A stretch of 64,000 nucleotides of DNA from Monosiga brevicollis MX1 (lineage: Eukaryota; Opisthokonta; Choanoflagellata; Craspedida; Salpingoecidae). The DNA lies in assembly GCF_000002865.3 (NCBI RefSeq), contig NW_001865040.1, positions 1,933,285 to 1,997,284 on the forward strand, written 5' to 3'. This document shows, one piece after another, positions 19,701 to 25,058 of this stretch. The notes beneath the pieces were generated by a model. The model was not told the DNA's origin. It saw nothing but the letters and a program-made list of their open reading frames with translations, and searched no databases. The position numbers and the translations under genes are program-made. Each line of letters starts with the position of its first letter. The stretch's first letter is position 1.

Positions 19701-20320
19701 AGCGTGATGGAGCAACAGGCCATGGTTGGCTTTGACGTATGTGGTGATTTCCGCTCGTACGCCGTGGCCGTCTCCAGTACTTGCAAGCTTTATGGCGTTG
19801 AAATGAGTACTATTTGGTGAAACTTACTGAATCTCTGTATCTCCCTACGCTTCGTTGCTTGTGATCATCTGACACTTGTGCAGAATCTTCCCTTTGCCAG
19901 TCAGCGCGTGGCACCTGTGGAGAATGTTGAGGACCCCGAGCTGTTTTTCCAACAGCCTGCTACCTTGAGCATGTTTCAGTCCACCCGGCTGGAAGAGAGC
20001 GTAGCTGACATTGACCGTGACTTGCGCAACACCCGGAATGAGTTTGCCATGTTCAAACAGGTGTGTCTGCTGTCGGCTTTGCTGCTTTAAGAAGATGGTA
20101 TTGGATTTCGACCGAGCACACAGCAATAGAAGCACAACCATGAGGACGGGGGGGGGGGGGGGGGGGGGGANNNNNNNNNNNNNNNNNNNNNNNNNNNNNN
20201 NNNNNNNNNNNNNNNNNNNNGACGGGGGGGGGGGGGGGGGGGGCACCTGACATGGCGCAGGACTCTAACTATAGCTCTCGCGTGTGCTGGCAGACGGTGG
20301 GCAAGCATTTGCAATCATGA
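16711..20320 (+). CDS. ATG13: Autophagy protein ATG13 (HORMA-domain subunit of the ULK1/ATG1 complex)
   Basis: Many small exons. Exon 1 (16711-16755, MAERQSDKRAILFEA) joins exon 2 at 17026 (MAQIIVQGRVHNADEP); together they match the first HORMA helix and strand of ATG13 (human FFALKTVQVIVQARL). Later exons fit the HORMA fold: 17287-17373 (SRYFEASQPLERTKKEA), 17469-17590 (VEIWRFYMSGNVKKES, then LLLHLRLLPAYR), 17735-17768, and GFKTVR near 17945. After about 18320 comes a long Ser/Ala-rich disordered region, then acidic and LPFASQ-containing exons (19881-20060), as in the ATG13 tail. The exon at about 17161-17220 and those at 17830-18290 are uncertain. The end is also uncertain: either readthrough to a stop at 20088-20090, or a last exon at about 20294-20320 across an assembly gap. 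Orthology rests on motif order, not on a search. Confidence 0.72.
20147..20243. other. Assembly gap of 50 N inside a poly-G tract
   Basis: G-run from 20147, then N at 20171-20220, then GAC followed by another G-run to 20243. The string GACGGGG occurs directly before and directly after the gap. The N count looks nominal. It lies in the final intron or 3' region of ATG13. Confidence 0.95.
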
Positions 20321-23242
20321 TGAAGCAGCAGCTACGCTGCGCAGCTTATTGATTTCGCCAATAATGTTGACCTCGCGTCCTTTGTACAAGGCCGCAATGT
20401 CTTCCTCCAACTAAAAGCACAGTTTGAAGTGATGAATGAAACAGTGAAGATGCGATTTGAAGACAATGTGCGGCAAGTTCACCGCGTGTGTCTAGCTGGT
20501 TCTCGTATCAGAGATAGGAGAGAGCAGGGGAAACAGAGGCAGAGACAGAGACAAGGGCAGGGCAGAGAACACACTGAGGGCTCATGAGCAAATTGAATTG
20601 ACAAACCTTGGCCTTGAGCCACAAGACGTCGCGTGCCAACGCCTGAAGCTTGGGGCGTGTTTCTTCAATACTACGCACAGCCTCAAATCGCTGCGTTTCC
20701 AGCTCTCGCAGTTTGTTATCGTTCTTGGCCACAACGGCGAGTCGTTGCTGCAAACTCTCTGCAAGACGTGCCGCATAACTGACAGCAGAAATAAATGGTG
20801 AGCGCCTCACACGCCAAGCTCAATGGTTGCTTCCAACCCAAAAAAAAGTCAACACCGCCAGCAGTGGCACTGACCGCGGTGATGAAGCAATCATGATCAG
20901 ACGTTGGCTCCGCTCCGACTGCATGAGCGCCATAATGTCACCGAGGGCATGTTCGCAACGCTCAAGCAGGGCCACGTCCTGTGCACAATCATCAAGGGAT
21001 AAAAAAAAATGAGCGACACGTCAGGCCAGCGGGCAGGGCGAGTCGCAAACTCGAGCTGACAGCGTAAACTCGAGCTGACGGCGTCAACTCGAGCTGACGG
21101 CGTCATACCTGGTCACGGATGATGGTGGGGGCGTTGCCAAGCGTAGCCAAGAAGGCAGACACGGTCTGGTCTAAATGGCAGCAACATGTCAATGAACACA
21201 ACCGATGATGGGTTGTCATAAAGACGTACCCGGTCCAACTTACTTTCACTCTCGTGGCGCCGGGTGCGAAAAAAGGTCGACAGCTAAACGGTAAGCATGA
21301 TTATGAGACCGAGTCCCCACCCCCCCCACATTGGAACCCCATGCCAGTGAATGGTCGTCATACCTCTTCCACCTCATCCAGGAAAGAGGCGCGATGCGCA
21401 GGATCATCTAGAAGTGGAGTACGAATAACTTCTGGCAACGCGGGATCAACGACCAGTGAATGTGAGCGGGGAGACCGTGGCTGACAAAGCGGTGGGGGCA
21501 ACCCACCTGGGGCTGCCAAGTCATTGCCGGTGGCAGGGGCTTCATCGACAAAGTCGATGGTGGGAGCGTCACCAAAGTCGATGGTGGGAGCGTCACCAAA
21601 GTCGATGGTGGGCGCGTCGCCAAAGTCGATGGTGGGAGCGTCACCAAAGTCGATGGTGGGAGCGTCGCCAAAGTCGATGGTGGGCGCGTCGCCAAAGTCG
21701 ATGGCGGGGCCCTTGTCAGTTGCACTGTTCGTGCCTGCTTCTGGTGGCGGCGCCTCACCCTATCATATAGCAGTCATGCAATAGCAAATGTGATGTGCAG
21801 CGCACTGCCGGCCAATCAAATTCACGATGCAGTTGAGAAGGGTGATTTCCAACCGTTTGGTATTCGTAAACGGAGGTATTGCCTTTCGTTCGCAAATGCT
21901 CGAGGATGGGCATGCATGAACCCTCTGGTGTCTTTTGACTACCAAACTCCTGTTGCAAAAAGCCGGTCCATGCCTTGTAGAAGTTCAAGGCATCTTGAAT
22001 GCCCTTGCTCTCTCGCAACTGCGTGACTACACTCTGCAAGGGGGCAACATATCGCAACGATGAAGCGGGCGCGAAACACGGCCATCAATCACCTGGCAAC
22101 GAGAAGATGATGGGCACCTACTGTCCACAGCTGAGGCAAATGCTGACGCAGTGCATCAATTTCAGCTGATACATCGCGGCCCTGGAAAACGAAAGAATCA
22201 CCATTGCCATGGTCATGAATTGAGGGACGGGGTGAGGCACTTCTTTGAGGTGGTGAATGAATGACGATAGGCAGACCTCAATTTCGAGCTGCGCACAGTG
22301 GTCCCGGTATTTTTGTTGCGCGGCCTTGCTGGCCGACTGCAGTTCTCCCGAGCGACGGTCGCAATCCTGCAAACAAGCATGCCCCAGGACAGCATGCGCA
22401 GTCTTTGAGGCACGGCCCAACCGCGGCCTGTTGCAGCAGGCATAAGATATCGCCAAGCACATACCGAGATGCGATGGGTCGCTCGGTCCATGGTTTTTTG
22501 CAACGCTGTGACTTCGTATTGCACACTGCAGGGCAGTGCATTATCTGTGAGCAAGAATCGATCGCATGTGCGGGGCGCAGGGTTCGTCTTTGTTGCCTAC
22601 TTATGCTCTAGCGCCGTTGCGCAGTCGGCCAGGTGCAATCTTTGCTTATCAAGCTGAGAAAGGATGGCCGTCAAAGCCTAGGAGAACAAGGGCAACATGT
22701 CCAGGTGAGCGAGGTCTAATGCGAAGGAGAGACGGCCCATTACTCCGAGCAGCACACCTTGACTCTGGGGGAAGTCGAGAAGCCCAGGACGTTGGTTTGG
22801 CCCGCATCTACTTGCTGAGTTGGGGTGCAAGTTTGGGATGAGCAAGAGCGCAAACCTGGAAGGAAAGCACGTGCGCAGGTAACCATGGGATGAAGTCCAT
22901 ACCGATACAATGTCCAGCAGTTGCTTGAGATGGTAGTAGGAGAGCATTGGCAGAGCCAAGATACGCTGTACTTCTTCATGATCGGCGGGCAGGTCGGGGC
23001 GAAGAGCTTGGACCTGCTTGCGGACAGCGCGCAACTTGGCATGATAATCGGCCTCGATCCAGCGACGGCTCTTGAGCCAATCTAACAACAGTAAAGAAGT
23101 GCTCAGTAAGTAGTGAACCCCCCGGGCTGCCAAGAGGCCAGAGTGCCGGCCGACTGCAAGATCGATGGTGCACAGCTCGAGCGAAGATCGAACCGACGAG
23201 CTTGCTGAACTGAATATCAATGGCCAAAACTTCATCGGCCAT
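20315..23242 (-). CDS. CDK5RAP3: CDK5RAP3 / C53, UFMylation E3-complex subunit and ER-phagy receptor
   Basis: C53 sits with UFL1 and UFBP1 on the ER, regulates UFM1 transfer to ribosomes, and acts in ER-phagy. About 13 exons follow human CDK5RAP3 from end to end: MADEVLAIDIQFSKLVDWLK (23242 into the exon near 23085), PMLSYYHLKQLLDIVS, a short exon with TNVLGFSTSP, helices to GRDVSAEIDALRQHLP (about 22180-22125), then LEHLRTKGNTSVYEYQT (about 21910-21850). The next exon (about 21762-21512) holds the intrinsically disordered region with seven IDF motifs at an 8-residue period. C-terminal exons give ASFLDEVEE, LIMIASSPRYAARLAESLQQ, and finally LYKGREVNIIGEINK before the stop at 20315-20317, matching the human KRYSGRPVNLMG end. 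The stretch between exons 3 and 4 may lack an exon of about 25 residues. The gene is tail-to-tail with ATG13. Confidence 0.9.
21550..21706 (-). repeat. 24-bp coding tandem repeat: seven IDF(G) motifs in CDK5RAP3
   Basis: On the minus strand the unit encodes IDFGDAPT. Seven IDF copies are present: the first follows KGPA, the next five follow DAPT, and the last reads IDFVDEAP. Units differ mainly at third codon positions (GGC/GGT, GCG/GCT). It occupies the same place, after the VYEY block, as the IDWG motifs of human CDK5RAP3. Confidence 0.95.
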
Positions 23243-23647
<405 letters not shown>

Positions 23648-25058
23648 ATGCGAGAGATGCGCTCGCAACGTCAGGGCGTGAGCAATCGCCAAACCACGAC
23701 GATCATGGTTGTGGTGGCCGTGCCACTTCTCTTCTGGTTCGTGTGGGGCGCTCGTGAGCGGGATAGACAACGTGTGCAAGCTCGCATTAAGGCCCCGGGG
23801 GTCTCAGGTGCTCACCGTGGTTGATGTCATTAGGTTGCTTTTTGCGTCACAAGGGAGCCCGCCCGGCCCCGTGAATCTCCGTGAGATTGAGGTCAGTTCG
23901 TGCGGTCTCTCCTTTTGTGGACGAAGCTTGCGTGCAAGCCGACGCCTCCACACGCCATTTTGTGGACTTGTATTCGCCACCAGGCCAGGTCACGCCTCAT
24001 CATCTTGACCTCACCTGTTGACCTTTTGTATCAGGTTGATATGCATTGTCATACGACAGAGTCTGATGGCGACCGCACAGCCGAGGAGCAGCTTGTCATT
24101 GCCGCGAGGGAAGGCCTCAAGGCCCTATGGATTACAGACCACGACATGATTCGTGATATCCCCCGGACTCGTGAAATTCAGGTGCGCCGGACGTCTTACT
24201 GACCCACCACAGAGATTTGCCAGGCACTGCTTGACCCTGGCTATCTTGACGCCCAATGCTCATATCGGCATCGCTGTCGTCACCTCCACAACTGTGCACC
24301 ATGACTTGGTTGCGTGCGTGCAATTCTGGCTGAGGGAGGTTAGGCCAAGGCCCAGTCTCTAGGAGTGGCTGTGTCCTTCGGAGTTGAAATTACCGTTGAA
24401 TGGATGAAGAAGGAGCATCATCTCTTGGGCTACTTTCCAGACTCGGCTTGGGATGGCCCTGCTCTGAGTCCGGCAATGACCTCGCTTCAGCAGGAGGTGG
24501 CCAAGGTTTGTCCATCCCGAGGAATGGCGTCACGCCTCATGCCGCCATGGCTGTTTGCGCGACCTTTGACATTGCTTTTCGGCTGGGCCCTTGTGTTTCC
24601 TTCCACCTGTAGGTCAAGGATTCTCGTGAAAATCGAAACCAAGAGATGGTGCGTTTCCTCAACGAAATGCTTGTCTCGGAGATTGGCCGGTGCGTATAAG
24701 AAATGCTGCCACCCCCTTCTTGGCCTTGAGGCCCCTGGTCCAGTGCTGAGCGTCTTTTGCTCTTGGATCTTTAATGGCGTGATATTGGGGGCCAGCCCAT
24801 TTCTCTTCTGCTTGCTCGACTCCTCTCGTCTACCCACCTCTCTTATTGGCTTCGTTTCGCTTTGTTTTGCGATGCCTCCGTTCGAGAAGATTTTACTATC
24901 AAGATGCAGGGCGACAGGCCGCCTTTAGGCCAATCAAGGTGGACGTTGTTGCCGAATGGTCCAAGACTCATGCCAATTTGATGGAACCCACCTCGCTGGG
25001 CCGGCCTCACTTCCGGTCTGTACGAAATGGACCCAACTCAGGAGCTCGTTTTATCGAT

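Follow-up and report, generated by a model that had tools for sequence, protein, structure and literature searches.

The 64,000-nucleotide stretch of Monosiga brevicollis MX1 DNA analysed here (the window; contig NW_001865040.1, 54.5% GC) carries a gene for CDK5RAP3/C53 on its minus strand. C53 is one of the subunits of the UFM1 ribosome E3 ligase and also acts as an ER-phagy receptor; it links UFM1, a small ER-stress tag, to the self-digestion of cell membranes. The gene model was predicted from genomic sequence and homology, with exon borders placed by hand, and comprises the following features.

20315..23242, minus strand: CDK5RAP3/C53 gene, 14 exons, 538 aa, hand-set AG/GT borders
23242-23194, 23081-22909, 22814-22758, 22677-22601, 22525-22465, minus strand: exons 1-5, hand-set borders
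22366-22277, 22181-22122, 22033-21854, 21759-21364, 21283-21244, minus strand: exons 6-10, hand-set borders
21170-21109, 20978-20875, 20778-20607, 20410-20315, minus strand: exons 11-14, hand-set borders
21854..22033, minus strand: exon 8, whose 3' end encodes the conserved GNTSVYEYQT (GNSTVYEWRT in human); matched by PF05600
21364..21759, minus strand: exon 9, 132 codons, phase 0 at both ends, encoding the whole arm and the first part of the C-terminal domain (TPLLDDPAHRASFLDEVEE)
21535..21702, minus strand: IDF array of seven 24-bp units, six encoding IDFGDAPT and then one encoding IDFVDEAP, protein residues 269-324

Judged by its sequence, this gene is an orthologue of CDK5RAP3/C53, as the original prediction held. 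Family PF05600 matches residues 6-525 of the 538 at E 4e-96 (323.3 bits against a cut-off of 22.6; profile positions 4-502 of 502), and all four matches of that profile in the genome lie inside this gene. Human C53 (8ohd_B) matches the model over residues 6-525 at E 5.2e-45, and the two flanking domains show identity at 68 of 235 and at 50 of 162 aligned positions. A PDB search with a 78-aa stretch alone returned nothing, whereas the full-length protein did match. A search for C53 in a prokaryote collection found none among 36 candidate stretches, and one in a viral collection gave two loci whose match (65%, residues 75-103) is confined to the query's repeat end. Exon 9 begins and ends in phase 0 and so could be skipped in frame.

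Several other features lie in or near the gene. A 19-bp tandem repeat (21048-21105, 3.1 copies) occupies the intron between exons 11 and 12, a 50-base N gap between G runs (20171-20220) lies about 95 bases downstream of the stop codon, and a perfect (CA)49.5 microsatellite (23407-23505) lies about 165 bases upstream of the start codon. On the plus strand, at about 24035-24200, a frame with VDMHCHTTESDG...ALWITDHD resembles a PHP-type phosphoesterase.

Structure and origin of the IDF array

A 24-bp unit giving six IDFG motifs and one IDFV motif at an exact 8-residue period had been predicted, and this was borne out at 21702-21535 on the minus strand. TRF reported a 24-bp period over 21549-21708 (6.7 copies, 94% matches), and the array also fits a 72-bp period with 2.3 copies. 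Across units 1 to 6 only two of the 24 sites vary, each in the third position of its codon (GGC/GGT and GCG/GCT), and the 72-bp halves formed by units 1-3 and units 4-6 are one base apart. Because the units are so nearly identical in DNA and the halves so close, the array has grown recently, in agreement with the expansion first proposed; the doubling of a three-unit block would be its simplest history. In unit 7 the I-D-F core is intact and divergence starts 3' of the core. Over the whole array, I, D and an aromatic residue are present in all seven units and G in six, and ID[FWY] occurs seven times in the 113-aa stretch, against a maximum of three in 100,000 shuffles.

Third-position changes had also been offered as a sign of selection on the protein sequence. 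Both variable sites are indeed third-position and synonymous, but with two sites only the chance of this is about 0.056, and the pattern was dropped as proof of selection; it hints weakly that the protein sequence may have been maintained. A DNA search of the 39.47-Mb genome, which skipped simple repeats, found one match of the array's kind. A protein search of the genome with six array units found five, namely the array itself and four segments belonging to another array, on contig C50. A dispersed repeat was ruled out on these grounds, and so was a location outside C53 or in non-coding DNA, as exon 9 of the complete gene model carries the array in frame.

The array on C50, at 290062-290592 (L038 1479-2030, about 290040-290590), also has an in-frame 24-bp period, with 20.7 and 22.8 copies in two registers, and encodes QAIGDTPT and a repeated TQ. 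Its open reading frame is 552 aa long, and the two Pfam matches there look like repeat artefacts; we take its TQ repeats to resemble the FHA-docking TQxF arrays of MDC1.

Since such an array exists elsewhere in the genome, growth of a 24-bp unit needs no C53-specific cause. Neutral minisatellite growth would leave one or two IDF motifs to do the work, the extra 24- or 72-bp copies having arisen by slippage or unequal exchange and been tolerated in a disordered arm. The near identity of the units and of the 72-bp halves, which makes the growth recent, suits this history, as do the longer in-frame array in another ORF on C50 and a count of variable sites (two) that does not demonstrate purifying selection. 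However, the repeated unit is built on the very motif that defines the region, and its I-D-F core is intact in all seven copies, even in the diverged unit 7. We consider neutral growth a serious contender that is nevertheless unlikely.

Position of the array and class of its motifs

Exon 9 starts just after the VYEYQT codons (VYEWRT in human) and ends at FLDEVEE (FLDELME in human). From the VYE(Y/W) block to the LL...FLDE helix, the C53 arm has 113 residues, against 98 in human. The IDF motifs stand at offsets 19, 27, 35, 43, 51, 59 and 67 in this arm, and the human IDW motifs at offsets 23, 48 and 66 between the same anchors. In the alignment to human C53, the array sits in the interval of the three human IDWG motifs, so that the predicted placement in the region of the shuffled AIMs (sAIMs) withstood the comparison; the motif number is likewise raised, to seven against three. 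The array had been described as following right after the VYEY block. It does lie downstream, but the block ends exon 8 and, after splicing, 19 residues lead to the first IDFG.

Three (PMC7515635) or four (PMC10183829) sAIM regions are reported to be conserved in C53, with the consensus IDWG. By its location in the C53 arm, the array belongs with them. By the strict consensus it does not: the expected replacement of Trp by Phe is found in all seven units, and Gly is kept in six. Because Phe occupies the Trp position in every unit, the array is classed here, on its sequence, as a Phe variant rather than a strict sAIM. No canonical AIM/LIR ([WFY]xx[LIV]) occurs in the arm, and four occur elsewhere in the protein. 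FoldIndex values are borderline (-0.04 for the array and +0.01 for the whole arm), and the alignment to human C53 would fit two helical domains joined by a disordered arm.

Four Trp residues of human C53 lie outside the sAIMs; one of these is kept in the protein described here, two are Tyr and one is Leu. Trp is thus not consistently kept in this C53, and the Phe of the array may be drift. The seven Phe probably represent one ancestral change that preceded the duplication.

UFM1, ATG8 and a matching change in UBA5

The proposed partners of C53 are encoded in the genome, as anticipated for UFM1 and ATG8. Besides ThiF, all eight Pfam families sought match above cut-off (C53, UFM1, ATG8, UFL1, UFC1, RPL26, DDRGK1 and C78 peptidase, the last at three places), and C53 co-occurs with UFM1, UFL1, UFC1, DDRGK1, C78 peptidase and UBA5; UFL1, UFC1 and C78 peptidase are known from profile matches. 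Absence of UFM1 was ruled out, since a UFM1 identical to the human protein at 68 of 82 residues was found; its sequence was read from Val4 on, earlier residues not being found, and terminates in VG plus two residues. Its changes include Ala31His, Phe35Tyr and Ala36Val in the C53-binding patch (the 18 residues that PMC10183829 names for signals shifting when C53 binds). Clustering of changes in this patch was dropped as not significant (5 of 18 against 8 of 62 elsewhere, Fisher P 0.15).

ATG8, compared through its main exon only, has an Atg8 (3m95) and GABARAP/GABARAPL1 as its best PDB matches, among the best 60 of 112 listed, and keeps the lysines at GABARAP 46-48. A second ATG8-like gene (C47:60453-60593, L011) has, by eye, KNK for KKK at GABARAP 46-48 and Phe at the Tyr49 position. 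RPL26 has KGK at the UFMylation site, with lysines on 132 and 134 by a numbering taken, without a printed alignment, from equal ranges (query 1-62 against 77-138 of the 145-residue L26 chain 22tu_LY); we take this chain to be mammalian. Lys134 of RPL26 is the main UFMylation site (PMC10937380). In DDRGK1, followed via its open frame only, the FVVEE strand is unchanged; this is the strand reported to bind UFM1 (PMC9772183).

UBA5 was reached via ThiF profile matches (C55:1609842 to about 1611900, L050/L053), and the assembled protein matches human UBA5 at E 1.7e-134. Its LIR/UFIM reads HTETFGICLV, against HEDNEWGIELV in human: Trp341 has become Phe, with one residue fewer before it, and three of the four contact-site residues (His336, Ile343 and Leu345) are kept. 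For Leu345 the comparison was made by eye, against WGIELV with the human LV taken from PMC7615515, as the printed alignment stops just past Ile343. A Trp of the adenylation domain (TWMES) is also kept. In human UBA5, His336, Ile343 and Leu345 contact UFM1 while Trp341 lies at the base of the U-shaped peptide (PMC5428781), and on GABARAP it occupies HP0, an additional pocket (PMC7615515). The change in UBA5 is new and had no place in the original prediction. Both of the Trp-based dual motifs that were checked, those of C53 and UBA5, carry Phe in their sequences. Two events, one in each protein, do not prove a linkage between them.

Interpretation and comparison with known systems

We favour, at a probability of roughly 0.62, the reading that the C53 arm is a polyvalent sAIM region of Phe type, docking both UFM1 and ATG8. 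In the known proteins, sAIMs bind both UFM1 and ATG8, and those of C53 are reported to bind like the UBA5 motif (PMC10183829). Closely spaced copies can add up, because an Arabidopsis two-sAIM peptide bound UFM1 (148.2 μM) and ATG8A (26.5 μM) better than single sAIMs did (PMC10183829). Each IDF(G)D unit would dock weakly to the hydrophobic groove of UFM1 (beta-2/alpha-1) and to the LIR site of ATG8, and seven such units, one every 8 residues, would form a landing strip on which a bound UFM1 or ATG8 hops among neighbours. The summed affinity could then be high, though a single site with Phe probably binds less tightly than one with Trp. In the resting state the strip would hold UFM1; upon ER-ribosome stalling, ATG8 would displace or join UFM1, and the autophagy step would start. 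We infer the binding, the avidity and the switch between rest and activity, taking C53 of human and Arabidopsis as the analogy. An extended stretch of eight residues measures about 27 Å, nearly as wide as a single partner, and perhaps three or four partners would be held at once; because of this spacing, seven folded partners could not sit on the array simultaneously. In this way the array could carry UFM1 and ATG8 at the same time.

It is also conceivable, although we consider it rather unlikely, that the Phe form shifts the balance, so that the strip serves mainly ATG8 (or mainly UFM1) and not both. In UBA5 the Trp lies in HP0 of GABARAP while Ile343 and the following Leu dock on both partners (PMC7615515; PMC5428781), and on that model a change of Trp only, as in UBA5 and C53 here, would hit the GABARAP side most. 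However, the work on Arabidopsis C53 points the opposite way: the sAIM1 Trp was required for UFM1 binding, while the ATG8A shifts were undiminished in W276A (PMC10183829). The two bodies of work thus conflict over which partner depends most on the aromatic residue. The ATG8 described here, moreover, keeps lysines 46 and 47, which are tied to HP0.

A still more tentative proposal, which we regard as a long shot, is that Trp changed to Phe in concert in C53 and UBA5, and that C53 made up for the weakness of its sites by a gain in their number, giving a strip long enough to hold UFM1 (for instance on UFMylated RPL26) and ATG8 together. If this were true, C53 would be a coincidence detector, in contrast to the either-or switch that has been put forward in plants and animals. 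A concerted change would also show how the parts of a two-partner linear-motif code can drift together.

Loss of function, with the array reduced to an acidic P/D/A/G spacer around a fossil core, seems improbable. The strict IDWG is not present, one unit reads IDFV, and the composition would suit a plain spacer. Apicomplexans are reported to keep UFM1 while sAIMs are absent (PMC10183829), so the presence of UFM1 is no guarantee of working sAIMs, and this also counts against our favoured reading. However, species without UFM1 are also without sAIMs, sAIM loss mostly accompanies UFM1 loss (PMC10183829), and the UFM1 found here is near the human one; UBA5, too, made the same change while its other contact residues were kept. 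An assembly error in the copy number, with a real array that is shorter or longer, is very improbable: near-identical short repeats are easily mis-assembled and the N gap lies 1.3 kb away, but an array of 168 bp fits inside one Sanger or long read, and its units can be put in order by two third-position variants.

The array bears on the question of how UFM1 and ATG8 share one weak C53 motif. Seven near-identical motifs at fixed spacing, with a matching change in UBA5, amount to a ready-made titration series, in which unit number, Phe versus Trp, and competition versus co-binding can be varied on one construct family. Choanoflagellates are the sister group of animals. In a search of the main texts of open papers, we found none joining CDK5RAP3 or C53/UFM1 with a choanoflagellate. 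Among the matches listed, no paper contained IDFG, and no title for shuffled AIM, tandem repeat and UFM1 concerned repeats in C53; Monosiga and IDFG were absent from the main text of both principal C53 papers. A survey of 153 species in PMC10183829 spans Opisthokonta, and its figures may hold this C53 sequence or other Phe-type motifs.

Among known systems, RTN3L is similar in being an ER-phagy receptor with six LIR motifs, each reported to be functional (PMC5517149). It differs in that its motifs are classical LIRs and it is a reticulon; UFM1 binding goes unmentioned in the passages covered from PMC5517149. The UBA5 LIR/UFIM is likewise a dual UFM1/GABARAP motif and has Phe for Trp here as C53 does, but it is a single motif with another core (WGIELV). 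In Arabidopsis C53 (IDWD, IDWD, ISWD and a cAIM), the W276 and W287 motifs, 11 residues apart, bind UFM1 or ATG8 better jointly (PMC10183829); that protein differs in its Trp motifs and its canonical AIM, and it is not described as a tandem repeat. The disordered region of human C53, with sAIM1-3, has these features in common with the arm here: the protein, the interval, the I-D-aromatic-G core and the acidic surroundings are the same, and the human region is reported to be without a cAIM (PMC10183829), as is the arm here. Human C53 has three Trp motifs, 25 and 18 residues apart, whereas the gene described here has seven Phe motifs exactly 8 residues apart; the gene is an ordinary C53, and its motif array is a marked variation on it.
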